DNA from: a virus | Reading direction: 5' to 3' (one strand) | Length of the DNA stretch: 47,986 nucleotides | Virus record (IMG/VR): IMGVR_UViG_3300013094_000087 | Location: 1-47,986 of that record | Shown: positions 2,828 to 45,500 of the stretch, piece by piece | Position numbering within the stretch: position 1 is the stretch's first letter | Layout of the letters: each line of letters starts with the position of its first letter | The notes under the pieces: model-generated | What the model saw: only the letters and a program-made list of their open reading frames with translations | Told to the model about the DNA's origin: nothing | Database searches by the model: none | Program-made: the position numbers and the translations under genes

Positions 2828-2835
2828 TATTTATC
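2828..2835 (-). promoter_or_regulatory. Late-promoter-like octamer next to a start codon
   Basis: GATAAATA on the minus strand, 4 bases before the kinase-like ATG. If used, the transcript would be nearly leaderless, so it may instead be a chance match at the GIY-YIG stop codon. Confidence 0.35.
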
Positions 2836-3619
2836 GTGATTTACAGTTTTCACCGTGCCAACGCTTATACATACCAACACTTGCGGTCTTTCCGCAGTGT
2901 TCGCATGTCTTCTTTTTCTGTGATGGATGCGTACCTGCTGCTAATCGTGCTAGGTTGGCTTCTGATCCTACAAAGTTATGAGTACCCGCTTCAACTCGCT
3001 TCTTGTTCATGTCAGGTCCCAAGAAGTTATGAGTACCGTCAGCAATCAACTTCTTATTGAGTTTGCCATCAGCATTAGGACTTTTGCCATTTTGCCAATG
3101 ATGCGTACCCTTCTCAGCATTTACGGTTGATGGGTTATTAGTGATAGAGTTGTGTGTTCCTCGTTCATATGCAAGTTTGGCGTTTCTACCATCTAAGTTA
3201 GGATGATTAGTTACCCAGGGATGTGAACCAGATGAGAATGCTTCTATTTGTCTATCACTTGCAGTTTTTCTTGCCCCAGCATCTTTTCTCATGTAATGAT
3301 TGTCACCTGTTATTTTTGCTGCGACTTTAGGATTAAGCATAGGATTATTTTTTCCAGTACCGAACCCAATAGGATCAATGTTTTGATTCATACAGTTAGG
3401 CTTACCGTAATGTTCGGTAAGGTATTCGCCTTCTCGTTGTTTCAATGTTTCAAAGTCATCCGCAAACTCTAATATCTCTCGTGTTAGTGTAGATTTATCT
3501 TTAATAGATAATGGCCATCTACCCGAACCGATATATCCGTCATCTAAGTTTTCAGTGCTATGCCTACCTATGTAGTACTTGCCATTAATATGAGTGGTTT
3601 TGTAAATAAAGTGTTTCAT
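2831..3619 (-). CDS. GIY-YIG homing endonuclease with GTH repeats
   Basis: The N-terminus FIYKTTHINGKYYIGRHS is a GIY-YIG nuclease core with the catalytic Tyr and Arg region. The core is followed by a DNA-binding tail of about 19-residue repeats, each with a GTHNF or GTHHW-like core (five to six copies, GTHNSI, GTHHWQ, GTHNFL, GTHNFV, GTHPSQ). A C-terminal zinc finger (CEHCGK...RWHGENC) closes the protein. Such free-standing enzymes cut phage DNA at a long site and spread their own gene. The gene lies after the gp23 terminator. I chose the ATG at 3619, giving 262 residues, because the ATG at 3634 overlaps a late promoter octamer; neither has a clear ribosome binding site. Confidence 0.85.
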   Translation of the reverse strand: MKHFIYKTTHINGKYYIGRHSTENLDDGYIGSGRWPLSIKDKSTLTREILEFADDFETLKQREGEYLTEHYGKPNCMNQNIDPIGFGTGKNNPMLNPKVAAKITGDNHYMRKDAGARKTASDRQIEAFSSGSHPWVTNHPNLDGRNAKLAYERGTHNSITNNPSTVNAEKGTHHWQNGKSPNADGKLNKKLIADGTHNFLGPDMNKKRVEAGTHNFVGSEANLARLAAGTHPSQKKKTCEHCGKTASVGMYKRWHGENCKSR

Positions 3620-3624
3620 ATCTT

Positions 3625-3632
3625 TATTTATC
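3625..3632 (-). promoter_or_regulatory. Late promoter octamer of the GIY-YIG gene
   Basis: The minus strand reads GATAAATA, just beyond the gp23 terminator and 5 bases before the likely ATG at 3619. A TTGACA sequence lies 15 bases upstream of the octamer (3648-3653), so a host-type promoter could overlap the late one. Confidence 0.5.
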
Positions 3633-3666
3633 ATAGTCTGCTGCGTTTGTCAATAATAACCATAAG

Positions 3667-8747: not shown

Positions 8748-11700
8748 TTAGAATTGCATTGGGCTGCCGCCACCTGGTGCTCCACCGGCGGCGCCAGCCG
8801 CAGCATTAGGAGCCGAAGCAGCATTAGACACAGGGCCGGCAACACCGCCTGGTTCTCCTTCAGGAGCCCCTTCAGCACCTTCGATGTTATCGGCAGTTTC
8901 AGTGTCGGCGTCAAAGTCTCCAGTAGATATACCAATATTTCGTAGATCAGATCCCTTAGGATCCTGTACGACTTCCTTCTTGTTTTCTTCTTCCCACATC
9001 TTTTCGTTCTTTTTGATCTCTTCCTCGCTGAGACCTAAGAATCTCTCAAGTGCAAATCTCTTTGAGATGTATGGAAATGCTTCCATCGATTGGAAAGTAG
9101 CAACCCTCGCAGTATCCATCTCTGCTTGACGATATGAAGCAAAGTTTTGTGGTGGATTGAAGGTAAGATTGAATAGGGCAGTGTCGATATTAAATCCTCT
9201 CCAACGGAGGAATAATTTGAACTCTTCATCTAACTTCAGTGAGATATAATTCTGCAAGCGTTCGCAATACTGATTGAATCGGAACTCTTGGATCATCGCA
9301 GTACCTACACGCCCGTCATTCATTGGTGTCGTGTTGTCATCGGGGCCAGTTGGCAAATATGAACTTGGAACACGGAGACCGCGAGCAAGGCGATTGTTGA
9401 AGTATTTCAAGTCATCGATCTCACCGAGATTCTGTCCACCAGGTAGGACTTCAACTGATGATCCACGCCCTTCTGCTGTCACAGGAAAGAAGTAATCTTC
9501 ATTCATCGAGTTTTTGACAAAGATTCCTGAATCAATAGCAAATGTATGGTAATCATGCCAACGATGATGACCATCAATTGTGATTGTGCCTGTATCACGA
9601 TTTTCAACTTTGGTTATTTTAACTATTTTATGATTAAAATTGTCTATGTCACTTACAAATTGCTTCCAATTTTTATAATTGTACTTTTTCAATAACCTAT
9701 TTAACTTGCTGTACCCAAATTTTGTATAATCAATTTTGTTATGTGCGTTCTTATAATCAAGAGGTGTTGAATTGTTTTCCTTAACTAAATTAAGTAGTTT
9801 TTCATCCTTATCACAATACGCAATAATTTCATTCTTGTTAGTTACCCCAGACTTAACTGCATCCGCAACTATTTGTAGCATATCAAAATTAAGATTCAAT
9901 GATTGATTCTTAATTTTAACTCTCTTAGCAAAGTTATCTCTCAGTATGTTCAAAAATTCAGGATTCTTAGAAATATAATTCTTTCTAACTTTACTCATAG
10001 ATATGCTGTATTTTTCTTTAGTATTTGGGTTATTTAACCTATCGAATACCGCCTTTTTCTGCGCCGCTCTAATATTCCAAAGACTAACTAATCGTTGTTC
10101 TTCGGTCATATTTTGCCAATTTTCTTTTAATGTTTGAGAAATCTTTGATGTCATTTCCTTTTTATATTCAGGTGACATGTTTTTCCAAAAATCTTTCTTT
10201 TGAGCAGCATGATAAAGGATATGATCTTTTTTGCTCATATATGTAAGATTTCTAGGATCGTTGTTGAACCTATCATGATCTTTATGATGAACAACGACTC
10301 TAGTATCTAGTGCATATTCAGTAAGATAATTAAATTCTTGGTGCTTTCCCTTAGACCTAAAAAATTCACCAACCATTCTATGAGTGTAAACCCATTTCTT
10401 CTCTTCATGATCCCACACTTGTTGATATTCATTAGACTTAGGACCTGATATATTTTGATACTGTACATTGAATGCTATCAGACTATCTTGTTCTGTCAAA
10501 TCTTTAGCCTCTACAAATCCTTTACCAAACACTGGTATTTTATGATCTGGAGTGCATACTAAAGTTTTTCCATTGTCAAAAGTCAATTCGAGCACTTCAG
10601 TGTTTTTTCTAGTAATGCCGGCCCAATTAATTAATCCAGGAACTATTTTACCTGTAACAGGATCGCAACTGTATGTCCAATTTTCTTTACCTGCTTCAAA
10701 TTCATCTATGATTTCACTCAATTTTAGTGTTCTACCATCCAGCAATGGAATTTTAGTATCCAAATCCAAACAAAGTGGATTATAAGTAGCGTCAACAACA
10801 GATTGTCCACCATAGAGTGAGGGAATCCTGCGCTGGTGAATCTCATTCTTGACGCGATCAACGAATGCCATAGCCATATGACTTGGCATATTACCAACGT
10901 CAATCTTGAACATCCTGCGTTCTGGCGCACGTTGTACACGATAGATGAGGACAGCATCTTCTAGTAGTTCTTTTTGCTTATAGACCTTGAAGATGTTCTC
11001 TAGTATAGATTGACCGAAAGGCCAGAACCTATCAAGACCTTCAGTCAATGACAAGTGAACGATGTGCTTTGCATCGACTGCTGATTCAGATTGTCCTAGA
11101 GTGAATCGTGAACCAGAAGTATTATAAGGCATTGCCGGAGTCGTGTAGGGCGTGTTAGTTCCTCCACCACTACCACCTAATCCAGTTGCTGGGTTAGCAG
11201 CGAAATCGGTATTGGTCTTCTGTGCTACTGATAGATTCTGTAGGTTGATATTGATGTCTTTGATGACATACTGTTCCGGCTTCTTGCCTTCAGATTCGTT
11301 GACGATAACCTTGATGACTTTTACCATGTCAACCCAATAGAGTTTGAAATTTTCTGGGTCACGGACAAATACTTGATCACCGAACTTGATCACGTTTCTG
11401 AAGATTTTGAACATACGCACATCAAATTCATTCAACTTACACCACTGATGTAGTTGCTTACCTAACAATTCTACTTCGTGTGGAGTAGGTTCTTCTTTGA
11501 ATTCAAATGAGAATGGTGTCTTATTGTGTTCATTTCTTTGTGTAGAGAACTCTGATATGATGTCTAGGCAAGCGTTGATTTCAGCATCAACATCCATCAT
11601 CTCGTATTGGTTATATCGCTCAATCCTGTTTGGGTGACCAGTATAGACTTCAGGAAGCCTAGACATGTAGTTCTTATAACCAAATTCAGTGTTATTCCAC

Positions 11701-11822
11701 CCACCTGTTTCAGAACCGTTCTGTCCAGGTGATCCGTTCCAAGCACCAGAGTTGCTGTTCATGCCCGAGATAGGACTTGATACACCGCTCTTATTTAGAA
11801 ATTTCTTTTTGTATGTTGCCAT
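8748..11822 (-). CDS. 20: Portal protein gp20 precursor with intein
   Basis: The 1024-residue frame encodes portal residues 1-350, an intein (351-771) and portal residues 772-1024, so the spliced portal would have 603 residues (T4 gp20 has 524). gp20 forms the dodecameric DNA entry ring at one head vertex. Typical segments are YNQYEMMDVDAEINACLDII, EDAVLIYRVQRAPERRMFKID and VLPGGQNLGEIDDL. A Gly/Pro-rich low-complexity tail (last 70 residues) extends the C-terminus. The insertion lies between NPL and SMNEDYFFP, a highly conserved part of the portal. An ACTAAATA octamer lies 24 bases upstream. Confidence 0.93.
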   Translation of the reverse strand: MATYKKKFLNKSGVSSPISGMNSNSGAWNGSPGQNGSETGGWNNTEFGYKNYMSRLPEVYTGHPNRIERYNQYEMMDVDAEINACLDIISEFSTQRNEHNKTPFSFEFKEEPTPHEVELLGKQLHQWCKLNEFDVRMFKIFRNVIKFGDQVFVRDPENFKLYWVDMVKVIKVIVNESEGKKPEQYVIKDININLQNLSVAQKTNTDFAANPATGLGGSGGGTNTPYTTPAMPYNTSGSRFTLGQSESAVDAKHIVHLSLTEGLDRFWPFGQSILENIFKVYKQKELLEDAVLIYRVQRAPERRMFKIDVGNMPSHMAMAFVDRVKNEIHQRRIPSLYGGQSVVDATYNPLCLDLDTKIPLLDGRTLKLSEIIDEFEAGKENWTYSCDPVTGKIVPGLINWAGITRKNTEVLELTFDNGKTLVCTPDHKIPVFGKGFVEAKDLTEQDSLIAFNVQYQNISGPKSNEYQQVWDHEEKKWVYTHRMVGEFFRSKGKHQEFNYLTEYALDTRVVVHHKDHDRFNNDPRNLTYMSKKDHILYHAAQKKDFWKNMSPEYKKEMTSKISQTLKENWQNMTEEQRLVSLWNIRAAQKKAVFDRLNNPNTKEKYSISMSKVRKNYISKNPEFLNILRDNFAKRVKIKNQSLNLNFDMLQIVADAVKSGVTNKNEIIAYCDKDEKLLNLVKENNSTPLDYKNAHNKIDYTKFGYSKLNRLLKKYNYKNWKQFVSDIDNFNHKIVKITKVENRDTGTITIDGHHRWHDYHTFAIDSGIFVKNSMNEDYFFPVTAEGRGSSVEVLPGGQNLGEIDDLKYFNNRLARGLRVPSSYLPTGPDDNTTPMNDGRVGTAMIQEFRFNQYCERLQNYISLKLDEEFKLFLRWRGFNIDTALFNLTFNPPQNFASYRQAEMDTARVATFQSMEAFPYISKRFALERFLGLSEEEIKKNEKMWEEENKKEVVQDPKGSDLRNIGISTGDFDADTETADNIEGAEGAPEGEPGGVAGPVSNAASAPNAAAGAAGGAPGGGSPMQF
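9510..10772 (-). mobile_element. HNH-endonuclease intein in the portal protein
   Basis: The 421-residue intein starts at Cys351 (block A, CLDLDTKIPLLDG) and has block B VCTPDHKIPV with the usual T-x-x-H. The inserted endonuclease has an HNH core (VVVHHKDHDRFNNDPRNLTY) and a basic helical tail. Block F/G is DYHTFAIDSGIFVKN followed by Ser772. The terminal Asn and the +1 Ser are present, but the penultimate residue is Lys rather than the usual His. The element is more AT-rich than the flanking portal sequence, consistent with recent arrival. Confidence 0.9.
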
Positions 11823-17394: not shown

Positions 17395-18144
17395 CTACAG
17401 AGCATTTGGGTTACTTTTACACTGATCGCCGTGATACATTGTATAATGATTTTTAGCAACCGTTTTACCGCAATGATCGCATGTGCGTTGATGCTCCGGC
17501 TTCTTCATTGGATTGTTATCTCCTGAATTTTTCAAAGTTGTCATCGCTTTATTGTAATCCGATGCCGGAATACCAAACATCGGGTTATTCTTGCCCTGCA
17601 TTCTAGCCGATAGTTTAGGATTTCCTAGCAATGATTTAGAGATGTTTTCGTTGTGTGCAGCAGGACGACATTCGCTATATTTTTTTACCCCAGAGCTTTG
17701 TTTCTCACGCCGCTCATCAGAATAAGTTTTTCCATAATGAGGTGATAGATTACCTTTTTTACCAAACATAGGATTCTTTGCACCTAATCTTGCTTCTCGC
17801 TTTTTTAGTCTCGTCTCTTTGTTTTCTTTAACACCGAAACGATTATATAAACCGTCACCGTTGTGTTGATTAAAGCTCATAGGATCATTTCGTGCATCTA
17901 AACTGATTAATATAGTAGTTTCTAAAGACACAATGTATTCAGGATCACCGGTATGTAATATTTCATATATCCACTCTTCTCTATTTTCTAAGATTAGTGG
18001 TTTTACTTCTTTACTTGAGCAAAGGTATTCTTCGTGACGATCAGGGTTCCATCCCTGTCTAACTTTTGATCCTATGTACCATTTGCCGGTAGCAAGGTGT
18101 GTCCACTTATAGATATATGGAATAGTAGGGTGATAAATATTCAT
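17395..18144 (-). CDS. GIY-YIG homing endonuclease
   Basis: The 249-residue protein starts at the ATG at 18144 (AAGGAAA at normal spacing); the longer frame to 18201 crosses a leader hairpin. The core YIYKWTHLATGKWYIGSKV is followed by three NUMOD3-like motifs (GAKNPMFGKKG, SPHYGKTYSDE, GKNNPMFGI). A zinc finger CDHCGK...MYHGDQCK closes the protein. It sits between the nuclease gene and the C-terminal part of gp46. A GATAAATA octamer 61 bases upstream overlaps the gp46 stop codon, and a long hairpin lies between that promoter and the ribosome binding site. Confidence 0.88.
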   Translation of the reverse strand: MNIYHPTIPYIYKWTHLATGKWYIGSKVRQGWNPDRHEEYLCSSKEVKPLILENREEWIYEILHTGDPEYIVSLETTILISLDARNDPMSFNQHNGDGLYNRFGVKENKETRLKKREARLGAKNPMFGKKGNLSPHYGKTYSDERREKQSSGVKKYSECRPAAHNENISKSLLGNPKLSARMQGKNNPMFGIPASDYNKAMTTLKNSGDNNPMKKPEHQRTCDHCGKTVAKNHYTMYHGDQCKSNPNAL

Positions 18145-18171
18145 GCTGATGTTTCCTTTGATAGCATTAGA

Positions 18172-18201
18172 GTGAGTGGGGATTGCACTCCCGCGACTCA
18201 C
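18172..18201 (-). promoter_or_regulatory. Leader hairpin of GIY-YIG gene
   Basis: GTGAGT pairs with ACTCAC, with an inner GGG/CCC extension, between the late promoter and the ribosome binding site. In T4, hairpins in homing endonuclease leaders limit early translation; a similar role here is inference. Confidence 0.5.
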
Positions 18202-18204
18202 AAC

Positions 18205-18212
18205 TATTTATC
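18205..18212 (-). promoter_or_regulatory. T4-type late promoter octamer
   Basis: The minus strand reads GATAAATA at the stop codon of the gp46 C-terminal gene, directing the GIY-YIG gene. Confidence 0.6.
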
Positions 18213-20505
18213 TTTCCGACTCTTTTTCACTACAGTAGGAAGTAAATCCTCCCTCCTTTACTGCTTTAACTACACTATCTACTCTATTAACCAACTCATC
18301 TTTATGACTGATTAACCACACTGATTTGTTTCGAGTTCTAGTCATATTTTTAAGCAGAGCCATAGAATTTTCAATCCCTACACTATCCATCCCCGCATCG
18401 ACTAACTCATCAATGAATATCGCGTTGATGGGACAGTAAAGATTTTCCCATACATCTCTAAACGCGAAGGATAATCCAAGAATGAGACGGTTCATCTCTC
18501 CCCTGCTAAGGTTATAGAAATCCAACTCTCTACCGAGTTCTGTGATCTCAACTGACAAGTCGTTCTTGAAGATGACTGTGTGTGGTAGCCCGATCTTGTC
18601 AAGATAGTTTGTGAGCCTAGAATTCAGATAAGACAAATTCTGATCAATGATCTTCTTGCGGACGAAGGAATCCTTGCTAGTCAGCAGATCAAGGAGGAAC
18701 TTCAGATGCTCTCCGGTACGGGTGAGTTGATTGATCTTGTTGAAGTCAATCTCTTGTAGGGCTTGTTTCTCCATGTCAGAGACTTGTTCTGCGTATGGGT
18801 CAACCTCAGCATCCTTGATAGCGATATGCCGCAGAAGATTCGCGACAGTACTGCGATGTTCGATTGCCTCTGCTTCAGTATCATAGTGCGTTACCGGTAT
18901 GGTTCCTAGAACGATGTCAGAATAATCGCACAACTGGTCAGCATACGGATCAGATTCTCCCTTCTTTGCATTGATCTGATTTTGGATGTTTTCGAGTTCA
19001 GAACTATGCTTGATAGCCTCATATTCAGTCTTATAATAAGGTTCGGGAATCGCGCCCAAAATGAATACAGAATTTTTATTTTTTTCTAGAGCAATCTGGA
19101 ATTGGGCAAGATCATTCTTTGCACCTTCTAGAAGAATCCTCTTGTTTGACAAGACCTTATCATGATTATGCGTATGGAAATCTTGCCCACAAGCATAGCA
19201 GGTGTTGCTTTCTAGGGTCTTGATCTCGGTTTCTAATTTGTCAATCGCTTTCTGTTCTTTAGCGATACTGACTCCTAGAGTCGCGATCTCCGTAGTAATG
19301 CTAGATAATTCGGCTGATCTCCTGTTATATTCGGCTAAATTTTTATGAGTCCGTAGTTCAGCATCTATATCAATGTGACTCAGTTTGTCGTATGACTTCT
19401 GCAAAGCACTGAGATCAGCATCTATCTTTTGCTTCCAGGCGATCTGCCGGGCAATCAAGGAATCGTGAGTATCTTTCCTCTTCTTGTTGTCGTTGTACAC
19501 TGCTAAATCTTTGTGAGCCTGAAGTTCGGCTTCAACGTCTATCTTACTCAATTCATCATAATCGTTGACTAACTTGCTTAAATCTTCATCATGCTTCTTA
19601 AGCCATAGATTCTGCCTTCGCTTCAGAGCCTCGATCTGTTCTTGGACACGCTTGTTGGCTTCTTCGATAGCCTTGACCCGGAATTCTTCTAATTGAATAG
19701 TGTCCTTGTTGTCACGGATCTTTTCTTTTAGTATTTCTGCTTTCTCTGATAGAAGGGTGATACCAAGCAGTTGCTCAATGATCTTTCGCTGTTCACCTGA
19801 AGGCAGAGAGAGGAATGGTTCTGAATATGTGTTCAATGCAATGATGTGCTTGAACATATCAGGAGTCATTCCGATAGCCCGTTCTATCTGAACCTGGGTT
19901 TCCTTGTTTTCTCCTTGGGCATCATCTTTGCCTTCTTGAAGATTGTTATTGACATAGAATCGGAGTGTATTTGGTCTGCGTCCACGCTCAATCTTGTATT
20001 CAGTGCCATGAGCAGAGAACTCAAGGGTACACATCATACCTTTACCGTTGGTACGATTGATCAGATTGTCTTTGCGGATGTTATTGATGGGGGAACCAAA
20101 CAGGACATAAGACAAACCTTGGATGAGTGTCGTATTGTGAGATAGAATATTATTAGTATAATAACGATGATCAGGGGAATCAACGGTAATGTCATACATG
20201 TTTTCGGCGTAAGACTTTCTAGTTACCGATTTAATGCGGTCCAAACCGATGCTAGTTTGAATACACGAAACACCTGCTATAAGATTCTTAACAAAAATTT
20301 CGTTATAGTTATGATCAAAGACGATGTGATCATCTGCACATTCTAGATGTAATCCGCTGGCTGTGTATATTTCCCATACATCATATGGTATAGTTTTATG
20401 AATATGGGTTATCGGTTGCCAACCGGTATCGGTCTCAATTTCTAAATTTTCTAAACTTACACTATCTACAAACTTGCGTGTTAGTGATTCAGAAAGTTTA
20501 CGCAT
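18208..20505 (-). CDS. 46: gp46 recombination nuclease, C-terminal part with C-intein
   Basis: The 765-residue protein starts with 124 residues of split intein, then 641 residues of gp46 from Thr125 (TTLIQGLSYVLFG). gp46 is the SMC/Rad50-like ATPase that works with gp47 to resect DNA ends. The exteins show a long coiled coil, a zinc hook CYACGQ (Cys436, Cys439), the ABC signature LSRGE (666-670) and Walker B FIDE (Asp699-Glu700). The Walker A P-loop is missing here because its first half is on the upstream gene at 21529-21801. AAGGAAC precedes the ATG, which overlaps the end of the nested endonuclease gene by 25 bases. Function requires protein trans-splicing. Confidence 0.9.
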   Translation of the reverse strand: MRKLSESLTRKFVDSVSLENLEIETDTGWQPITHIHKTIPYDVWEIYTASGLHLECADDHIVFDHNYNEIFVKNLIAGVSCIQTSIGLDRIKSVTRKSYAENMYDITVDSPDHRYYTNNILSHNTTLIQGLSYVLFGSPINNIRKDNLINRTNGKGMMCTLEFSAHGTEYKIERGRRPNTLRFYVNNNLQEGKDDAQGENKETQVQIERAIGMTPDMFKHIIALNTYSEPFLSLPSGEQRKIIEQLLGITLLSEKAEILKEKIRDNKDTIQLEEFRVKAIEEANKRVQEQIEALKRRQNLWLKKHDEDLSKLVNDYDELSKIDVEAELQAHKDLAVYNDNKKRKDTHDSLIARQIAWKQKIDADLSALQKSYDKLSHIDIDAELRTHKNLAEYNRRSAELSSITTEIATLGVSIAKEQKAIDKLETEIKTLESNTCYACGQDFHTHNHDKVLSNKRILLEGAKNDLAQFQIALEKNKNSVFILGAIPEPYYKTEYEAIKHSSELENIQNQINAKKGESDPYADQLCDYSDIVLGTIPVTHYDTEAEAIEHRSTVANLLRHIAIKDAEVDPYAEQVSDMEKQALQEIDFNKINQLTRTGEHLKFLLDLLTSKDSFVRKKIIDQNLSYLNSRLTNYLDKIGLPHTVIFKNDLSVEITELGRELDFYNLSRGEMNRLILGLSFAFRDVWENLYCPINAIFIDELVDAGMDSVGIENSMALLKNMTRTRNKSVWLISHKDELVNRVDSVVKAVKEGGFTSYCSEKESER
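20134..20505 (-). mobile_element. C-terminal half of split intein (124 residues)
   Basis: Residues 1-124 contain block B (LECADDHIVF; the usual Thr of T-x-x-H is Ala), block F (YDITVDSPDHRYYTN) and block G (NILSHN), then Thr125 as +1 residue. The penultimate His and final Asn needed for cleavage are present. Block B usually lies in the N-half, so the split is unusually early. Confidence 0.88.
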
Positions 20506-21569
20506 TGGTCTATTGTTCCTTGTTTGTCCTTATTGTATTCCGATTCCCATACTACTAGTACTTGATAACCGGCATCGGTTAGTGTCTTTAATTTATTTTC
20601 GTCATGTTTCCATATGTTTTCAACAAGTTTACCTTTTATCATATCACCGGCTGAAAACTTGATAGGGTTCGCATGCCAATAGTCACCGAAAAACTCTATT
20701 ATTTTTTTGTTAGTTTGGTGTAAACAATCGACCGTGTACGATAATCCGGAAACAGTGATTATTGCTTCATTTACCCCGAACAATATGTCAGGAATTTTTT
20801 CGCTTATATGAGTAAAAAAGGTCATTGATATTTTAGAGTATCCACCGTGAATCCCGGATGCTTTTAGCGAGTTTAACCATTGTTTCTGCCTAGCACTCCA
20901 AACTTTCTTCCCTTCAATTTCACCGTACTTTGATATACATGTATCAATGGAGAACAATTTTTGTGCTGCTGACACCTTAGCAATCGCATCGTCTTCCGAA
21001 AAACCACGCAGCATCCAGTAGTCAGCGGTTCGATGACTATGCGCTCGCAATCTGCTCGGGCTACGATTTTTTGATCCTGCAGCACCGGCTATATTATTTT
21101 TTAATTTTTGGGCTTTGGCTAATTCTATAGCATCCACTTCATTGTATCCCTTTGCAATCCAATATTCCTTTCGTATTGGTCGTCTTGAATTTCGTTCCTG
21201 TTCCGCTTCGGCTGTAGTATAGTTGAGGTTTGTTTTAGGGTTAATTTTTTTAGTCCAAAAGATAATTGAGTATGGGCTATTTCTATTTGCAGACTTATTA
21301 ATAGTCTTCATATTCTCTTTGGCTTTTATTTCAGCCTGCAAACTGTCCCATCCCCGTTCAGTCCAATATCGGGCGCTTCCTGATCCTATTCCGGGCAAAG
21401 ATAGTAGCGCCCGGGCAGCAGATTCGCATTGTTTCATGCTTGTCATGGGAAATTTATGCTCCATGAGTTTGTTGCATATTTCAGCCCGCAGATTAGGTTC
21501 TAGGTTTTTTATCCTATGATCTAACACATCATTTACTATTTCTAGTTTGGTTTTCTTTGCTGGTGGCAT
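20481..21569 (-). CDS. Vsr-like homing endonuclease nested in split intein
   Basis: The 362-residue protein carries in its last 85 residues a Vsr-type (very-short-patch-repair-like, EDxHD family) nuclease pattern: Asp281 in YTVDCL, then FFGDYWHANP (Trp298, His299), then GYQVLVVWESE (Trp341, Glu342). The N-terminal 230 residues contain three repeats of about 20 residues with the core YW-xxx-G (YWTERGW, YWIAKGY, YWMLRGF), likely DNA-binding modules, and a linker SKYGEIEGKKVW. The gene overlaps the upstream gp46 N-part by 41 bases and the downstream C-part by 25 bases. GGAG lies 6 bases before its ATG. It is expected to cut gp46 genes that lack the intein and so spread the whole cassette. Confidence 0.85.
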   Translation of the reverse strand: MPPAKKTKLEIVNDVLDHRIKNLEPNLRAEICNKLMEHKFPMTSMKQCESAARALLSLPGIGSGSARYWTERGWDSLQAEIKAKENMKTINKSANRNSPYSIIFWTKKINPKTNLNYTTAEAEQERNSRRPIRKEYWIAKGYNEVDAIELAKAQKLKNNIAGAAGSKNRSPSRLRAHSHRTADYWMLRGFSEDDAIAKVSAAQKLFSIDTCISKYGEIEGKKVWSARQKQWLNSLKASGIHGGYSKISMTFFTHISEKIPDILFGVNEAIITVSGLSYTVDCLHQTNKKIIEFFGDYWHANPIKFSAGDMIKGKLVENIWKHDENKLKTLTDAGYQVLVVWESEYNKDKQGTIDQCVNFLNH

Positions 21570-21648
21570 ACAAGTCTCCTACAGTAGTTTCAAATATTTC
21601 GCCGGTAACGGTGTTTCTTACTTTTACTACAGTATTTATGCCAACGCA
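21529..21648 (-). mobile_element. N-terminal half of split intein (39 residues)
   Basis: It begins at Cys52 of the gp46 N-part, directly after the P-loop Lys, and ends at the stop codon. Only block A is present. The nested endonuclease start codon lies inside it. Confidence 0.88.
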
Positions 21649-21801
21649 CTTGCCTGTACCGTTACGAGCGCCGTCTCCGCCTAGATCCAGATTCTCTCCT
21701 AGGATGAGCGTGAGTTCTTTGCTATCAAAGTTGACTGCTTGGCAAACCGCCCCGATAGAAAGGAAGTTACGTAGAGTGATATTCTTAAGTACAATTGACA
21801 T
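21529..21801 (-). CDS. 46: gp46 recombination nuclease, N-terminal part with N-intein
   Basis: The 90-residue protein starts at the ATG at 21801 (GAGGAAC 8 bases upstream). Residues 1-51 are the N-extein of gp46, MSIVLKNITLRNFLSIG up to the P-loop half GARNGTGK. Residues 52-90 are a 39-residue N-intein: Cys52 and block A (CVGINTVVKVRN), then ETTVGDLY, then stop. Joined in trans to the downstream gene it restores NGTGK-TT, a complete Walker A. The mature gp46 would have 692 residues (T4 gp46 has 560). On its own the peptide cannot bind ATP. Confidence 0.88.
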   Translation of the reverse strand: MSIVLKNITLRNFLSIGAVCQAVNFDSKELTLILGENLDLGGDGARNGTGKCVGINTVVKVRNTVTGEIFETTVGDLYATSKENQTRNSK

Positions 21802-21926
21802 TAAATATAGTTCCTCATTAAGTTCTGCTTCCACGGAAGCATTCTAAGATTAGATAAAGACGCTGCTTCTTCAGCAGGAATTCCTTGTTCAAAGCATTCT
21901 TTAATCGTTTTAAGATAATCATAGAC
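21801..21926 (-). CDS. Possible small ORF between gp47 and gp46
   Basis: A frame open from 21938 would encode up to about 45 residues, including VYDYLKTIKECFEQGIPAEE and RMLPWKQNLMRNYI. Its stop TAA overlaps the gp46 start codon (TAATG), suggesting coupling. It has no ATG or GTG at the upstream end, so its start is unclear (GTC or ATA), or it is a frameshifted continuation of gp47. The composition looks coding, but it is unproven. Confidence 0.35.
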   Translation of the reverse strand, partial: VYDYLKTIKECFEQGIPAEEAASLSNLRMLPWKQNLMRNYI

Positions 21927-22932
21927 CGTTATAAATCTCTAGCAATAGTTTAGAATCATAGAACTCACTCTCAATATTAGTGATGCTCTCTAGCACGATC
22001 TGGTCAACACTCTCAAACTTGATATCACCGCCACCTTCTTGCGAGAGTTGCTCGTTCTTGATTGGAATCAATGATACTTCTCTTAGACTGTATTCTGGAA
22101 TAAGCGTCTCCCTGATATAGTTAGCCTCTTCATATGATACATCAATGTCAAGATGCACACGGATGCTAGCTTTTGGCAAGAGTAGTCCTTTCGGATTGTC
22201 TAATACAGAACTGAGTTTGTAGACACGGAAGATAGGTTGATTGGGCCAAGAATGAAATACAGGATCTTCTCCCCATTCTAACACCATCATACCGCGAGCA
22301 TCATCACCAGCATCAGCGTAGTTATGCGGAAACGCATTCCCTGTATACCAGATGTTCTTGCGAGATTGACGCTTGTGGAAGTGTCCAGAGAATACGGTTC
22401 CTGTATCTGCAAAATCATCGTCGCTGACAAACCCATGATCTGGCATTAGCACCTGTGCGTTCATATAAAAATTAGGAAGTTCAAAGTGTCCGAAGGTATA
22501 TTTGGATTTAATTTTTTTAACTTGCTTTATTTCATCTCCTACCAACCACGGGCACAGCGTTACGTCACCTTCGGTATAAATATCATTTATTATATGAATG
22601 TTATCTAAGTATCCGGCCCAAGCCACACTGTGGATATCTCTTTTTTCTCGGTAATACAGGTCATGATTTCCGGTCAAGAACAGGACTCTGCTGAAATTTG
22701 CATTTAACAACTCTAGGCAACGCATTGAATAGTGTAAGCTATGGATGTTAATACTAGCACGATGGTTGTGCCAGTCACCACAAATGATTGCTGTATCACA
22801 ACTTTCTTCTTTTGCCTTATTAACAAACCATTGTACGAATTCTAAGCAATCCTCATTGTGTATTACACTGTTTGACTTCAGTCCTATATGAAGGTCTGTC
22901 ATGACTGCTGCTTTTTTAAATAGATTTGTCAT
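21919..22932 (-). CDS. 47: gp47 recombination nuclease (SbcD/Mre11-like)
   Basis: The 337-residue metallophosphoesterase is close to T4 gp47 in length (339). All signature motifs are visible: TDLHIG (Asp13, His15), CGDWHNHR (Asp53), TGNHDLYY (Asn89, His90) and SGHFHKRQ. With gp46 it trims DNA ends for recombination-dependent replication. It is transcribed before the two gp46 parts. No ribosome binding site is seen before the ATG, but a host-type promoter with a -10 box only a few bases upstream suggests a very short leader. Confidence 0.93.
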   Translation of the reverse strand: MTNLFKKAAVMTDLHIGLKSNSVIHNEDCLEFVQWFVNKAKEESCDTAIICGDWHNHRASINIHSLHYSMRCLELLNANFSRVLFLTGNHDLYYREKRDIHSVAWAGYLDNIHIINDIYTEGDVTLCPWLVGDEIKQVKKIKSKYTFGHFELPNFYMNAQVLMPDHGFVSDDDFADTGTVFSGHFHKRQSRKNIWYTGNAFPHNYADAGDDARGMMVLEWGEDPVFHSWPNQPIFRVYKLSSVLDNPKGLLLPKASIRVHLDIDVSYEEANYIRETLIPEYSLREVSLIPIKNEQLSQEGGGDIKFESVDQIVLESITNIESEFYDSKLLLEIYNGL

Positions 22933-36540: not shown

Positions 36541-39500
36541 ATGGCAAACACTAGAATAAGAACTTTAACATTTCTTCCGGAAATATTTCAGACTCCGTCT
36601 AACTCGCAATTCTTAGCAGCTACGCTGGATCAACTTGTTAATCCTCCTGTATCTACTAAGATACAAGGTTATGTCGGTAGTAGATTTGGTTACGGAGTGA
36701 ATGCCAATGATTACTATGTCACGGAACCTACCAAAACACGCACAGATTATCAATTAGATCCAGGCGTAATTTTTACTGCTCCTCCTACATCTCAAACCGA
36801 AGTTGCCGGAACTGCTGATGACTTTATCTCTTATCCAGGAATCATCGATGCCCTTAAAACAGACGGTGGTGCAACTGATAACAACAGCGCGTTATTCAAC
36901 AGCCAATTCTATTCTTGGGATTCTTTTGCTGATCTAGATAAACTCATCAATTTCAACGAATACTATTGGTTGCCATTAGGTCCACCAGCAGTAACTGTTG
37001 CAGCCAGTACTATCTACACTACCGAACAGTATGTGATAACTGACCTACCTAATGGTTATGAAGTTTCAATACAGAATCAAGTCGGCAGCAGCATCAATCC
37101 TACCCTCACTCTAATAAGGGGAGGAACATATACATTCACTGTAAATCAAGCTTCTCAATTTTGGATTCAGACCCTTCCTGGAACGTCAGGCTATGAGCCT
37201 CCCCCTAATCAAAATATCTACACAAGAAATGTTTTCGGAGTAACCAACAACGGCGCCGAACAAGGAACTGTGACCTTCAATGTTCCTGCTGCTGATGCAC
37301 AGAATGAATACATAATTCCTGGTAATCTTACAGTTGATCTAGTTAGCACGACTCCATTTGAGAGCATCAACGGTCAACTCTTGTCATCATTTGAGAATAT
37401 AGATGGTGTGACATCGCTAGAAGGTCTGACAGTGATGTTCTATGGTACTGGAATTGATCCGGGCAATCCTACTGGATATGTCTCTTCTTATTTCAGTGAG
37501 GATGGAGTTCCATATGACACTAACAGCACTTTAATACAGTCAGTCACTCCTCTGACCCTGACGGTCGGAAGTTCTAGTGCCACTAACTTTACACTAAGTA
37601 CCGGCGATACGAACATGTTCACTGGAGGGAGCTTGATCACATTTGACGCTCCCACATTTGGTGGCATTAATGCAGGACAGTTCTACTATATCAGTTCAAT
37701 ATTGAACTCAGTTGATTTTACTATCTCTGCTACGCCCGGCGGCTCTGATCTTGCATTGATACCAGGTGCCGGTGCCATGCCAATCAATTTTGATAATGTT
37801 CCTAGATCAGAACAAACTTTAACCGTAGGAAGCATCGCGAACATAAGCGGCACTGATTATCTCATCCTATCTTCTGGTAACACAAATAATATGGTCGTTA
37901 ACACGACGGTCACATTTAATAATGTGTTCGGCGGCATCACTGATGGTCAAGTTTACTACATCAGTGAAATCAAAGATTCTGTAACTTTTTCTGTATCCAG
38001 TATCGCTGATGGGACACCTCTAAATTTGACTGTTGGCACATGTAATATGGGAGTCGTGATCAATCAGGGTCAACTTGAAGATGGATTTACGACTACGGTA
38101 AGAGACAATTTTTATCAGATTGAATACGTAGGGGATCCTTCTGATCCTGTAGTCAGGCTCTATCCAGCCGGAGCTATTCCAATCAATGAACGTATCATTC
38201 CCCAATTAGGACAACAATATAGGAGCATACCTTTCTATCGTGATGCCCTCGGCGACCTACAGGAAATTCCTGCCATAACTGCACCGCTTGATACGCTTTA
38301 TTATCAAGACGGGACTTACGCGGATAAGGTAGGTATCATCAAACTCATTGATAACAGCGCCAGCAACGGCATAGATGTAGCTACGCAGATTTTAGGTAGA
38401 AAAAATTATACTTCTCCTAATGGAGTAAAATTTACTAATGGTCTAAAGGTTCAGTTTAACGGAAATATTGTTCCTTCAAGTTATTTAACGGGTCAATATT
38501 ATGTTCAAGGTGTAGGAACTGCGATTGAATTAGTCGCAGTCAGTGAGCTAGTATGCCCAGAAAATTTCACTCAAGGTAACTATGTTCCTTATGACTCAAC
38601 TCCGTTTGATACTACGAATTGGGACGCAGAATTATACATTCCTGTGTTACCAGATTACTTGACTATTGCAAGAAACTCAATAAGCAGAAACCCATGGTCT
38701 AGAAGTAATAGATGGTTCCATATTGATGTCATCAATGCCACTGCGGTATACAATAATAATCCTGATATACTTACAGCATATGCGACGGCAACCAATAAGG
38801 CGGCCCGTCCTATCATTGAGTTCTATCCAAATCTAAAACTATTCAATACTGGTATTGATGGCAAAAGCCCAGTAGACTTCGTTGATACTAGGACAGTGAG
38901 TCCTTTAGTTGATGTTGCAGGTGCATTAAACTATTATCCAGATGTTCAAGTCTACACAAATGCGACTGCTACGCTATCAGCAGCAGCAAGTGCGACGACA
39001 ACTACTATCACAGTTCCTGCAACTTCGGTTACCGGAGAGATTCAGAATCTTATGTATATTTCTGATTCTCTTGGTGAACTGCCAACAAACGCTCAGATCA
39101 CTGATATTACCGGAACTGACACATTAACGATCACTGTGTCATGGGCAAGCCCCGCAACTTTTGCAGGCGGAAGTGATATCTCATTTGTCGCATCTGCTAA
39201 TACCTTAAATGATTATGCTCTATTCTCAGGTGCCCGCATCATCTTTGCTGCTGCCGGCGATGTGTTTGCTGCCAGCGAGTTCACGGTCGGACAAGAATAC
39301 ACTATCGTGACTTTGGGTGATACGAACTGGAATGCTATCGGTGTTATCGGTGTCCCGACAGTTGGTACAAAGTTCATTGCTACTAGCGTCGGCACAGGTA
39401 CCGGCACTGCTAGTATTCCTGATCCAAATGTAAGAAACAAGATATATGTTTCTGAGTTCTCCACCATCGTACCTGATACCCGGCCGGTGCTCACGCTTAC

Positions 39501-42500
39501 TGTTGCTGAGGATGGTGTCTGCGTTCCCGAAACACAAACAGTCGCAGTGCGTGGCTACAATTATCAAGGTGTCAGTTTCTGGTATGATGGTATTAAATGG
39601 ATCGAATCTCAACAAAAGATCACCGTAAATCAGGCACCGTTGTTTGATATCTTTGACTCAAATGGAATCGGCCTGAGCGATGTGGCAGTATATCCAAGCT
39701 CATCGTTTGTCGGTAGCAAACTGTTTGCATATGGTATCGGCAGCGGATCTCCTGACTCAGTGTTAGGATTCCCAGTAAGATACAGTTCAATCGCAAATTC
39801 CGGAGACATAAGCTTTGACGTATCGCTCAATACAGACACGTTTACGTATGTCAGCGGAAGTTCCCCTATCACTGAAAATATCAATATTGGATACGTATAC
39901 AACTATACATCATCCACTGTTTATGAAAGACAGCTAGGATGGCAGACTGCTGTTGCTCCTAGCGAACAGTATCAAATCTTTAGTTTCAACTATGACCCTG
40001 TTAATCCTACTTATAATTTATTGTGTGACATCGCTGCTACACCAGAACCAACAGGAACTACGGTTGCTGGCGGATTTGTCAACGGCGGCACATATACTAT
40101 ATCGTTCCCAGGAACAACTGACTTCACCTCGTTTGGTGCTGCTGCAAATATAATAGGAGAAAAGTTTGTTGCGAATCTGACAAACCCAATCTCTGTCAAT
40201 GCTATGTTGAGCGAATACGAATACACTATCGTATCTTTAGGCGCTACTAATTGGAACGCTATAGGTTATGTAGGTACTCCTGTTGTAGGTGGCACATTTA
40301 CATATAACGGCACTGCTGTGATTGGTGCCGGAACAGTGTCAGGTGCAAGCGCTGGTACTGGTATCGCGAATAGTGTCGGTTGGCCAACAGTTCAAGTCTA
40401 CGTAAACAACGTGTATCAGGATCCGGCTAATTATACTGTTACTATCGGATCTACTACGACTAATATCAGTTTATCTACTAACATCACAAATTATATCTTA
40501 ACCAGCACAGTGATTCAAGTATTAGTTATAAGCGACCAAGTAAGCACGGCGGCATATTATAGTATTCCGATCAATCTTAACAACAATCCGTTCAACGAAG
40601 ACTTGACGGTCGTCAATTACGGAGACATCAGCAATCAATATCGCGACATCTTTATCAATGCTCCTGGCACTACTGGTGATATTTACGGTGCAAACAACTT
40701 CAGAGATTTAGGAAATCTCGTGCCATACGGTACTAAACTGATCCAGAACTCTTCATCATTAGTTCTACCTGGTGCATTCTTGCGTTCGCTGAGTACCAAC
40801 TTGTTTGACTCGTTGCTTTATAATAGCAGATCCTATATCAATTACAAGCAGCTTATAGTAGATACCGTCCAAAACACTGATTTTGTCCAGCGTTATACCC
40901 CTTCACAGATTTTAGACTCTGCTCTAGCCCAGATCACCGCTTCAATGAGTGAGGTCAACTCATTCTTTTGGTCGGATATGCTACCATCAAAAACTACCTA
41001 TGTCTCAAACACATATGTCTTTAATAATGGGCTAGATGTTTCTATATATCCCCTAACGCAAGTATACAATTTCAGCAGTGCTAACTATAACGGCGTTTTA
41101 GTATATCTCTATAGAATAATTGATGGGGTCACGGTCGAAAAGCAATTGACGACTGGCGTAGATTATATTGTCAGTACTACAACCCCGTCATTGTCAATCA
41201 TTATTCCTTTGCAGGATCAAGACCGAATCACGATTAACGAATATAACCAAACATACGGTTCTTATGTTCCAAATACTCCAACCAAATTGGGGTTATATCC
41301 TTCATTCCAACCAGGAGTCGTTCTTGATAGTGACTACTTGATACCAACATACTTTATCAGGGGACATGACGGATCATTTACTAAACTCTATGGTGACTAT
41401 AATGCAGAATTAGGAATACTCGTTGACTTCAGAGACCAAGCATTATTAGAATTTGAATTAAGGATTTATAATAACCTCAAGTTGAGTACTACTGTTCCTA
41501 TCTCAAAGTTTGAGGTCGTTCCGGGCTTCTTTAGAAACACTGGTTATACTTGGAGCGAATTCCTAGACATTTATAGTCCAGCATTCCTGAACTGGATCGG
41601 TCAGAATCGCCTGAATTATAAGACACAGTATTATACTAAAAATTATGAATTCGGGTACAACTACACAAACTCAGGCAACAAGTTAAATGGTGCTCCTATA
41701 CAACAAGGATATTGGAGAGGTGTCTATGAATATTTCTATGACACCACTACACCTAACGAAACTCCATGGGAGATGTTGGGCTTCACTGATCAGCCTATTT
41801 GGTGGGAAACTAGATATGGTCCTGCTCCTTACACCAGTGACAACGGTGTTCTTTGGGGAGATTTGGAAGCAGGTTATGTTTGGAATAACGGCAACTCTTA
41901 TGTAAGACCAGAATGTGCCCGTCCCGGATTGAATAGAATCATTCCAGTAGACTCTGCTGGACAATTGCTCTCACCTCTCAATTCAATCGTAGGAAATTAC
42001 AATCCTAATACTTTCCAGAAAGATTGGGTAGTAGGAGATGATGGCCCTACAGAACTAAGTTATCGTCGCAGTTCTACATATCCTTTCGACCTCATGAGGA
42101 TATTTGCGTTAACGAAGCCAGCCGAATTCTATAATTTAGGAGTTGATTTAGACAATTACAAGTATAACGCAGAGTTTGATCAGTATTTGGTCAACGATAG
42201 AAGCCATCTTGTCATCTCAAATATTCAAGTGTACGGTAATGGTATCGCAAAAACTAGCTATATTAATTGGATTGTTGATTACCAAAAGCAACAAGGAGTA
42301 GATGCCACTAACACTATCACTACTTTATTAAACAATCTAGATGTAAGATTAGTTTATAGACTAGCTGGATACAGCGATAAAGATCAGTTGCAGTTCTTTG
42401 TTGAGAAACCATCTCCAACCAACATTAATTCTTCATTATTAATTCCTGACGAGAGCTATTCTGTTCTGTTATATGAGAATCAACCATTTGATAGTATCAT

Positions 42501-45500
42501 GTTCAGCGGCATTATTGTGCAGCAGAATGAAGGATATTGGACTGTATTTGGTAATTCACAAGACCTCGCATACTTTGAAATCCTTGATCCTATGTACAGC
42601 GGTCAGACAGAAACAATAACCATATTAAAACAGACGATTAAAATCACAACTTCCTATTATAAAACAAAAACCCTGATTCCTTATGGCACTGCATTTTATA
42701 ATACACAAGAACTGTCACAATTTATATTAGCATATGGGGCCAACCTAGAATCTAAAGGAATGATTTTTAACAATACCCAGAATGGTATGGTAATAGACTG
42801 GAAGCAAATGGTCTATGAATTCCTATATTGGACCCAGACTGGTTGGACTAACGGTAGCCTCATCACGTTAAATCCTGCTGCGACAGACATGTCTATTGAT
42901 CCAGCAACTGCATTGGTTCAGCCGCTGACCGTCCAAGAGCATAACTTCATACTGAATCAAAATCTATATCCTATCAATCTGAAGGACCTATGCATCAATC
43001 GTGACGGAACTGCGTTTAATGTCCATACGTTGAACAATGGCGATGCTATGGCATATGCCCAGTTTAACATAAGCAACTTTGAACATGGTATCGTATTTAA
43101 TAACACGACCCTGTTTAACGATGTGATATATAACCTAGTTACTGGTCTGCGCCAGAATCGCATCAGTGTCCGAGGCGCGAAGTCTGCTGAATGGAACGGT
43201 ACTGTAAATGCTCTAGGCTTCATCTTCAATCAGAATAACATTCAGCAATGGAACGGAAATCTAAAGTACACCAAAGGCGAGATTGTTATCTACAAGAATA
43301 AGTATTGGGCTTCACAAAAAGTAATAGAGCCGGCAATGACCTTTGACCAACTGGCATGGCAAGAGATCACATATGACACATCAAAGCAAGGATTGTTGGC
43401 GAACCCATCTACCCGTGCATATGAGAGTACGCTTTATTATGACATCTATCAAGCAAACCTGCAGCAGGATGCTGATCTACTCGCGTTCTCCTTGATCGGT
43501 TATCGTCCTAGAGATTATCTCGCACTTATTGATCTTACCGACATTGCACAAGTTCAAATATATCAGAACATGATCATCAATAAGGGCACGCTAAATGCTA
43601 TCAATGCATTTAATGGCGCCAACCTCCCACAAGGAGGAATTCAATACCAGACATTTGAGAATTGGTCTATTAAGATAGGTGATTACGGTGGAGTATTAAA
43701 TCAGAACTTCATTGACTTCAGGACTGATCAAAAATACATGACCGGAGACCCTTCAATCATCAGCTTGACTGATGGTACTGGTCCATCAACCCCAGGATCA
43801 CTGCAAGTCATCCCTATATATAATTTGTTCAACTATAGTAGACAGATTACTAATGAAAACATTTTGAACACTACTAGCACCGAACCTACATCATTCCTAT
43901 TCCCTAGTGCAGGATATGTCAACTTCAATGATATCAAGATGTCTTCTTATTTCTATTCTGGCTTACCAACCGCAGTAGATAAAACTGGAACTATAATTCC
44001 TATTCAGAACTTCTATGTAGGTGAATATCTTTGGCTGGCTAACTTCAAGGAGAAGTGGGCAGTCTATAGATGGAAAACTATCGGTGAAATAACTGCCGTT
44101 CAGAATAATCTTAATCAGACTGCTACTATTACCTTCTCTCAACCTCATGGATTGCAGGCATTAGATCCTATGGCAATCGTCAACTTCTCAACACAGATAG
44201 ATGGTTATTATCTAGTGGTTCAGTCTGTAAATCTTTATCAAGTAATTATTAACATCTCGTTGCCTACTTCATCTCCTGTTATCATTCAGGGTGGAGGATT
44301 GGGTATGTCCTTTGAATCGCATCGGGTCGCAACCCCATCAGAACTCATTAGCTATGATCTTACTGAAAATGAATTCATAGCCAATACCTTCTGGGTAGAT
44401 GAAAACAATGACGGCAGTTGGGCAGTCTATCGCAAGACTATAAACTACCTCTATCAAAATGCGCTAGAAAAACTTGAATCAACCACATTAGGCACTGCGG
44501 TTGCTTATACACCTGATATCGGTTATATGATAAGCGACGCCGGTGAAGGTAAAGTATACATTTATTCTTACAATGCATTAACTGAATCATATGCATTAGG
44601 TCAGACATTTACACAAGGTGCATCTTTTGGTTCCAATATCGTATATGCAGGAAATACTTATGTAATCACTCAGCCTGAGAATACTGCTTCGGTGTATGTC
44701 TATGTATTAAACAACACGAATATTACCTACAATGATCTTATTCTAGCACAGACAATCGTTCCAGCAGCAGCAGATAAGGTTGCTATCTCAGGTGATGGAA
44801 ACTGGATCTATGTTTCTGATGTCACCAGCAATCTGGTCTATGTATATCGTAAAGGTAACATAAATCTTAATGCAGGGTATTTCACATTAGGTCAAACATA
44901 TGTTATCACTAGCGTAGGTGACACTGACTTCACTGCTATCGGAGCGGCTGATAATCAGATTGGCATCACTTTTGTTGCAACTGGAATAGGCACAGGAACT
45001 GGTACTGCGACACAGGTCACATATGAGTTGGCAAACACGATTGTTGGAAGTGATGTGGGAATCGTTTCAGGTGATAAGTTTGGTTTCTCGCTCTCAACGA
45101 ACTACAATGGAGATACGCTTGTCGTAGGTGCACCATTCAAAGACTATAGTCCGACAATTAGCAACTGGGGTACTGCTTATACATACCAGAGAACCCTGCA
45201 AAACTTCATAGCTAACTATACTTCGGTCACAGGGAGTCCGCAACAGTTCACATTGGCATGGACTCCAGATCAGATAACTAGACCAATAACCGGAGTTAGC
45301 AGTAACTTCATAGCGGTCTCTAGTGCTGCCGGACTTAGCGTAAATGATCCAGTAATCTTTAGTGGTGGTTCATTAGGCATCTCTGGTATTCAACCCCTGA
45401 CTGTCTACTATGTCTGCGAGATCGTTAGTGATACCTTCACGATTAAAACATCCCGTTCAACGAATACCCCTATTAATCTAGCAGACTGCACCGGACTGAC

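Follow-up and report, generated by a model that had tools for sequence, protein, structure and literature searches.

A gp46 gene apparently fractured by an early-split intein with a nested Vsr-like endonuclease gene in an environmental phage

The DNA analysed here, called the window, is the whole of IMG/VR record IMGVR_UViG_3300013094_000087, 47,986 nt from an environmental phage. Its gene for the recombination enzyme gp46, a Rad50-like DNA-repair ATPase, is divided between two open reading frames (ORFs) on the minus strand, and the break falls in the codons of the Walker A P-loop. We are highly confident that this is a fractured gene, in which a class-1-like intein has been cut early, into parts of 39 and 124 amino acid residues (aa), by the gene of a homing endonuclease of the EDxHD/Vsr fold, and that the 692-aa gp46 would be made by trans-splicing. 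The locus is laid out as follows.

21801 to 21529, minus strand: gp46 N-half, 90 aa, made up of a 51-aa extein and a 39-aa N-intein
21649 to 21801, minus strand: gp46 N-extein, 51 aa, terminating in the P-loop half GARNGTGK
21532 to 21648, minus strand: N-intein, 39 aa, CVGINTVVKVRNTVTGEIFETTVGDLYATSKENQTRNSK; relatives hold homologous N-inteins
21529 to 21531, minus strand: stop codon of the N-half, directly after the N-intein
20481 to 21569, minus strand: predicted Vsr-like (EDxHD-type) homing endonuclease gene, 362 aa
20505 to 18208, minus strand: gp46 C-half, 765 aa, made up of a 124-aa C-intein and a 641-aa extein
20134 to 20505, minus strand: C-intein, 124 aa, last residues ILSHN
18208 to 20133, minus strand: gp46 C-extein, 641 aa, first residues TTLIQ
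21575 to 21580, minus strand: AGGAGA, candidate ribosome-binding site of the endonuclease gene, within the N-intein codons V-G-D
20517 to 20521, minus strand: AAGGA, weak candidate ribosome-binding site of the C-half, picked by eye in the endonuclease's last codons, with a long spacing

The initial annotation of this DNA had read gp46 as the product of two genes bearing intein halves of 39 and 124 aa, and its coordinates agree with ours to the base. The N-half junction is ...GARNGTGK / CVGINTVV...TRNSK and that of the C-half is ...YYTNNILSHN / TTLIQ..., so that GARNGTGK does end the N-extein and SHN followed by TTLIQ does mark the end of the C-intein. The endonuclease gene, which is in another frame, shares 41 nt with the N-half and 25 nt with the C-half, and the joined exteins come to 51 + 641 = 692 aa, again as annotated. 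The two halves share one reading frame, with starts 1296 nt apart; a shared frame is found in 19 of the 27 distinct gp46 alleles described below and may just reflect overlaps conserved by descent.

The identity of the split protein is clear from PHROG 77 (phrog_77, SbcC-like), whose positions 294–333 align to N-half residues 1–51 (E 1.6e-4) and whose positions 334–956 align to C-half residues 125–762 (E 1.2e-88). The match is contiguous to the residue over the junction, so that excising exactly the proposed intein leaves no gap. The same residues are contiguous in relatives with an empty site, where the N-extein end is joined directly to TTLIQ. On both grounds the earlier claim that joining the halves restores Walker A is upheld. 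By eye, the C-extein also has a zinc hook, CYAC, an LSRGE signature and an IFIDE Walker B.

Pfam and PHROGs alone name neither the intein nor the endonuclease over threshold; therefore, profiles, models and fold comparison were used. The joined window intein has seven matches at E <= 1 among PDB sequences, including VidaL (5.8e-5), gp41-1 (0.018) and CatC, the consensus Cat (0.072). A profile of 11 joined relatives raises these to 2.4e-10 for VidaL, 1.7e-9 for gp41-1 and 8e-7 for CatC, and adds NrdJ-1 at 2.6e-4. The AlphaFold model of the C-intein, which leaves the N-intein outside, has the Hint/horseshoe fold with a predicted local distance difference test score (pLDDT) of 93.6. VidaL is its best match (Foldseek E 7e-7; Z 14.1 over 108 residues at 2.1 Å, fold-comparison rows within 1 Z counting as tied), and the 50 matches listed are all inteins, Hedgehog or bacterial intein-like domains. 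The PDB sequence matches and the Hint fold of the model bear out the split intein of the initial annotation.

The expected splicing residues C1, H162-N163 and T+1 are in place in the window intein. The terminal His and Asn are invariant in all 38 aligned C-inteins, as is the block-B His, H60. Among the 27 gp46 alleles, 14 have T and 13 have S at +1, as Walker A itself requires. All 27 are split alike, with N-inteins of 31–43 aa and C-inteins of 123–128 aa. The gp46 intein is class-1-like and is placed at the Walker A P-loop codons (GK^T). Pairs of relatives, chosen by hand and sharing members, give dN/dS values of 0 to 0.19 for the C-intein (nine of nine pairs) and of 0.13–0.38 for the endonuclease (eight pairs, seven of which gave an estimate). 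By this measure, the C-intein is under purifying selection in the relatives.

The element belongs to a family with a patchy distribution. IMG/VR was scanned with a C-intein alignment, and the best 80 of 398 confirmed places were used. Both halves were recovered from 64 of the 74 non-duplicate readable loci; seven others lack an N-half in the locus and three are contiguous. The 64 comprise 35 gp46 loci (27 distinct alleles) and 29 loci read as terminase large subunit (23 distinct alleles), in which the intein sits after the GK of a motif read as the terminase Walker A. The finder sought GK followed by Cys, and other sites or first residues would be missed. Genes were called gp46 or terminase from this motif and from extein likeness; PHROGs, run on six loci, identified L161, L181 and L193 as gp46 and L185, L201 and L208 as terminase. 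An endonuclease ORF longer than 800 nt is present in 23 of the 27 gp46 alleles and absent from three; in the remaining one (L058/L149, a single contig), it is frame-broken at runs of A, and these breaks may be sequencing errors.

The insertion point in gp46 was not known to the initial annotation; it is now found in 27 distinct alleles of uncultured phages (within the best 80 of 398). Among the matches listed by two tblastn searches (the best 40 of 318 and 15 of 467 records), no cultured phage has an early-split gp46 intein, these partial listings not showing its absence from the whole cultured-phage collection. The listed matches are mostly annotated as terminase, and the rest as hypothetical protein or 'pretoxin HINT domain protein', or are unannotated. 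Salmonella phage Munch was considered as a carrier of a gp46 intein on the strength of a match that began inside the C-intein, and was rejected because no intein appears in its translation.

Three scans with gp46 C-exteins found empty sites at 232 of 239 classifiable gp46 loci and an intein at the other seven, six of these inteins being of the window's own type; the scans used best-80 lists, and two of the three the listed matches only, so each count means at least that many. In a quick gp46 tree of 124 representatives, the intein state changes 14 times, and starred branches make at least 10 of these changes unavoidable; the window allele groups with two empty ones in a starred set of three. 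The clearest case of mobility is the pair L160/L165. Their 1491-nt elements differ at one position from first to last base, while the C-exteins are 76% identical with a dS of 0.85. The nearest outside mismatches are at −16 and +12, and the near flanks are about 90–93% identical. A near-identical element within diverged flanks is the mark of a recent transfer. On a quick tree of 49 C-inteins, four changes between gp46 and terminase suffice; its support is poor (9 of 46 inner branches starred), and it neither demonstrates nor rules out transfer from one gene to the other.

The nested gene matches phrog_22677, a family of unknown function. Its model has a pLDDT of 89 and a predicted template modelling score (pTM) of 0.53. 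Residues 240–362 adopt the fold of Vsr (1cw0; Z 12.2 over 114 residues at 2.6 Å) and of I-Bth0305I (3r3p, named 'Mobile intron protein' in the PDB; Z 11.2 over 94 residues at 3.2 Å), and I-Bth0305I is also the single PDB match at E <= 1 of a 30-member endonuclease alignment. D281, E292 and H299, which may correspond to residues of the EDxHD motif, are kept in 31, 32 and 31 of 38 relatives. The annotation as a Vsr-like endonuclease thus agrees with the fold of the C-terminal domain in the model, the sequence match being weak. The N-terminal two thirds form a separate part that is largely helical. It has recurring YW..G motifs (by eye) and a stretch, G...W..RQ..W, that is strongly conserved, and it probably serves as a DNA-binding module.

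Endonuclease relatives are also found between the N- and C-halves of a DNA helicase (L088), of a DnaB-like helicase (L094, where the C-intein is aligned) and of a UvsX-like recombinase (L098), the N-halves being recognized by PHROGs and the splits by eye. Two further relatives are of note in their own right. A terminase-intein endonuclease (L186:3722-5014) keeps the family's N-terminal module and has an end that is GIY-YIG-like by eye, with a weak MUG113 match, a possible domain swap. At L095:4127-6127, the ORFs on either side of another member of the endonuclease family (47% over residues 275–361) resemble pieces of a single gene, RtcB-like by eye, and the record has no PF14890 match; this is perhaps a gene split without an intein.

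The overlap of the N-half with the endonuclease gene appears to carry a second meaning. A motif of the G-E/D-L/F-Y type is present in 31 of 37 distinct endonuclease-bearing N-inteins. Counted from the first base of its Gly codon, the endonuclease ATG follows at 10 or 13 nt in 28 of the 31. This Gly is encoded by GGA or GGG in 26 of 31, compared with 16 of 34 for the T-G-E glycine farther upstream (Fisher p 0.004, related sequences being treated as independent) and 305 of 667 among C-extein glycines. This codon bias and the spacing of the ATG suggest that N-intein codons double as the Shine-Dalgarno sequence and start of the endonuclease. Such an embedding of the endonuclease's ribosome-binding site and start codon in N-intein codons is likely, and is newly described here. 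At the other end, the overlap of endonuclease and C-half is 25 nt in 27 of 37 gp46 and terminase loci.

We propose the following course of events. One polycistronic message would be read as three overlapping genes, the N-half, the endonuclease and the C-half. Endonuclease translation would start from the Shine-Dalgarno sequence and ATG in the N-intein codons V-G-D-L-Y, and translation of the C-half would start inside the end of the endonuclease gene, presumably by translational coupling. The intein halves would then associate, Cys1 and Thr+1 would carry out the acyl shifts, Asn163 would cyclise, and a 692-aa gp46 with an intact P-loop would be released, probably as an essential protein of the window phage. 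The endonuclease, for its part, may cut those gp46 alleles in co-infecting phages that lack the intein, in or close to the codons of the P-loop, with the subsequent repair copying the whole element across.

Several other explanations have to be weighed. Splitting by misassembly or sequencing error of an intact gene comes to mind, given the metagenomic origin of the record, and we consider it close to impossible. The window's 3594-nt stretch recurs in six other IMG/VR records, each with its own metagenome number, showing 0, 0, 0, 2, 2 and 1 mismatches and no indel (the figure of 1 covers the 2393 nt, two thirds of the stretch, held by L078), and the same arrangement is present in 26 further distinct gp46 alleles. 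The assembly error that the initial annotation had named as a way to overturn its reading is contradicted by these matching records and by the homologous arrangement in other phages. It had likewise pointed to a second intact gp46 gene. None was found in the 48-kb window record, in a 57-kb record of the window phage or in nine further intein-bearing records, all of which may be fragments; gp46 occurs at a single place in all 10 intein-bearing records searched. That single place also speaks against a dead element, that is, a gp46 pseudogene in a decaying arrangement. A relative with a frame-broken endonuclease (L058/L149) speaks for decay, but its breaks at A runs may be sequencing errors, the window stretch is free of indels in all seven records (in L078 over its two thirds), and the C-intein is under purifying selection in relatives. 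We regard decay as very improbable.

That the gene is split and left unspliced, with the two halves assembling non-covalently and the flanking sequences being relics, has T4-type precedents, for an excerpt of PMC2988022 describes functional split proteins without splicing, such as the NrdA of Aeh1, split by mobE. In the window, however, the break lies inside the P-loop and is flanked by a complete intein in two halves, with Cys1 and His-Asn/Thr+1; the C-intein model is a well-formed Hint fold; the selection on the C-intein argues the same way; and three alleles without an endonuclease retain the intein. Assembly without splicing therefore appears improbable. About equally improbable is that the nested gene is an unrelated free-standing nuclease that landed in the intein rather than its homing nuclease. 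Nuclease relatives do occur in records where PF14890 has no match (17 of the 27 searched, among them those of L093, L095 and L100), PF14890 being insensitive here; but the nuclease occupies the same intein point in 23 of 27 gp46 alleles with conserved overlaps, and in L160/L165 it is as nearly identical as the intein.

Some observations weigh against the reading as a trans-splicing intein with its own homing endonuclease. The PF14890 (Intein_splicing) score is 16.4 bits for the C-half and 28.9 for the joined intein, the cut-off being 35.8. All 38 C-inteins have Ala (A57) where the usual block-B TxxH has Thr; VidaL also aligns with Ala there. Because the N-half finder required GK and then C, the constancy of Cys1 and of the GK site is not independent evidence. 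For the N-intein, which is short and overlaps the endonuclease, dN/dS is unsettled, ranging from 0.11 to 0.95 in the eight of nine pairs with estimates. The sequence link of the endonuclease to I-Bth0305I is weak (E 0.051). Foldseek returns nothing below 0.001 for the endonuclease model and ranks Vsr third at 0.054, behind Toxoplasma mitoribosomal proteins (0.019 and 0.033), and two such proteins reach Z 10.2 and 10.0 over the same domain; the Z-scores of this domain therefore reflect a fold shared more widely. The flagged long branches of the gp46 tree, L193, L181 and L195, are all intein rows, and L160 and L165 are metagenome assemblies that may share a mis-assembled segment.

A fractured gp46 with a working split intein leads one to expect alleles that have lost the nuclease and remain split, and these exist. 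The endonuclease-less gp46 alleles L151, L181 and L193 (L183 being paired with L181) are still split, with intact intein ends. In L151, a single stop codon parts the halves; in L193, stop and start overlap as ATGA; and in L181/L183, the C-half frame has its first ATG where the endonuclease's start codon used to be. The opposite state is seen in two terminase loci, L185 (1496-4513) and L208 (3783-6653), where N-extein, intein and C-extein form one open frame and an EDxHD-type endonuclease gene lies in another frame of the same DNA. The intein frame of each is free of stops, whereas 3000 synonymous shuffles average 19.1 and 15.4, with minima of 9 and 8, respectively; five fractured controls have 35–49. 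A contiguous intein without any endonuclease match is found in L201, and in both Kuja and ZQ1 the intein match falls within what is annotated as a single terminase gene. Both the endonuclease-less but split derivatives and the continuous intein frames over an out-of-frame endonuclease are new here.

It is tempting to propose, though as a tentative suggestion to which we give somewhat less than even chances, that the family records how a natural split intein originates. An endonuclease would invade a contiguous intein early in its sequence and in another frame, borrowing the intein codons V/I-G-E/D-L/F-Y as ribosome-binding site and start. Stops would then accumulate in the intein frame, to be rescued by trans-splicing, and the split would persist after loss of the endonuclease. 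The stages would be represented by the open intein frames of L185 and L208, by the window, and by L181/L183. The order of the intein states is unrooted, which makes this pathway a proposal.

Among known systems, VidaL (PDB 6vgv) is the best match in both sequence and structure and shares the block-B Ala; it belongs to another host gene and has a shorter N-part than the window intein. Fractured genes with EDxHD endonucleases were reportedly described by Dassa et al. in 2009, and gp41-1 and NrdJ-1 are said to be members of the class. In fractured genes, as in the window, each intein half belongs to a gene of its own, and a Vsr-like endonuclease gene separates the two. The common natural split is about 100 and 40 aa, according to an excerpt of PMC11923092, and the 39/124 of the window departs from it; hence, the window element is a variant and not a typical fractured-gene intein. 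The assignment to this class by the initial annotation holds for the two ORFs with an endonuclease ORF between them and fails for the usual split.

In split position, the gp46 intein is better set beside the terminase pairs, GOS-TerL at 37/115 and AceL-TerL at 25/104, as tabulated in the excerpted text of PMC11766414. An early split before block B, like that of AceL-TerL, had been annotated, and it proves close to that of GOS-TerL. The host gene here is gp46 rather than terminase, and the nucleophiles are Cys1/Thr+1, compared with Ser1/Cys+1 or Cys1/Cys+1 in the TerL pairs (same excerpt). Further early-split company is provided by the PolB16 OarG intein, split 15/168 (excerpt of PMC10189870). 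In the DNA polymerase B of Pseudomonas phage MIJ3, an endonuclease gene also lies between split intein genes, although the N-part there carries blocks A, N2, B and N4, the host gene is another and the authors call the endonuclease HNH-type (PMC6892783, in part). A relative of the window endonuclease, perhaps this one, is present in MIJ3 (27.5% identity over residues 131–362). Salicola phage SCTP-2 gp539 (L119, MF360958.1 gene 539) has an intein at the same gp46 codon, GIGK^...THN^TTIING, which is of another make, being contiguous and beginning with Ala; the gene is annotated as a hypothetical protein and the intein is unannotated (Intein_splicing 25.1 bits and LAGLIDADG_3 E 0.029, both under their cut-offs). 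L185 and L208 resemble, and differ from, an out-of-frame HNH element in which no splicing domain was found, as far as the excerpt of PMC11855218 goes. No description of the gp46 intein was found in the literature searched, in which key fractured-gene papers were not covered, so an earlier description is possible.

The next gene upstream of gp46 (21919-22932, phrog_100) encodes a homologue of gp47 (SbcD-like), followed by a late sigma factor gene; gp46 together with gp47 has been named as a possible participant in phage homing (PMC2988022, in part). A free-standing homing endonuclease gene of phrog_314 with NUMOD3 motifs (17395-18201, minus strand) adjoins gp46, and another of phrog_314 (2831-3634, minus strand) adjoins the major capsid gene. 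Just upstream of the former lies, by eye, a GATAAATA stretch, which we take to resemble a T4 late promoter. In L058, genes that are GIY-YIG-like by eye flank the fractured gp46 (L058:3458-4015, minus strand; L058:7362-8108, plus strand), which raises the possibility that homing genes accumulate around gp46. The portal gene (gp20; 8751-11822, minus strand; Portal_T4 E 1.6e-93) contains a second, contiguous intein with an HNH endonuclease at residues ~350–770 (Intein_splicing 41 bits, over the cut-off; HNH_3 just under its own), so that inteins of two kinds occur in the window phage. An open frame (36541-47985, plus strand) of no fewer than 3815 codons, for a giant protein, runs off the window end.

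In the gp46 loci, early-split inteins thus form a family with many members, placed in the catalytic P-loop of a recombination enzyme whose activity would depend on trans-splicing. The family is a source of new natural pairs in which the N-part is short, a type employed in protein labelling (excerpt of PMC11766414). Since empty, intact, broken, endonuclease-less and contiguous states occur together, the origin and retention of split inteins become directly testable in it.

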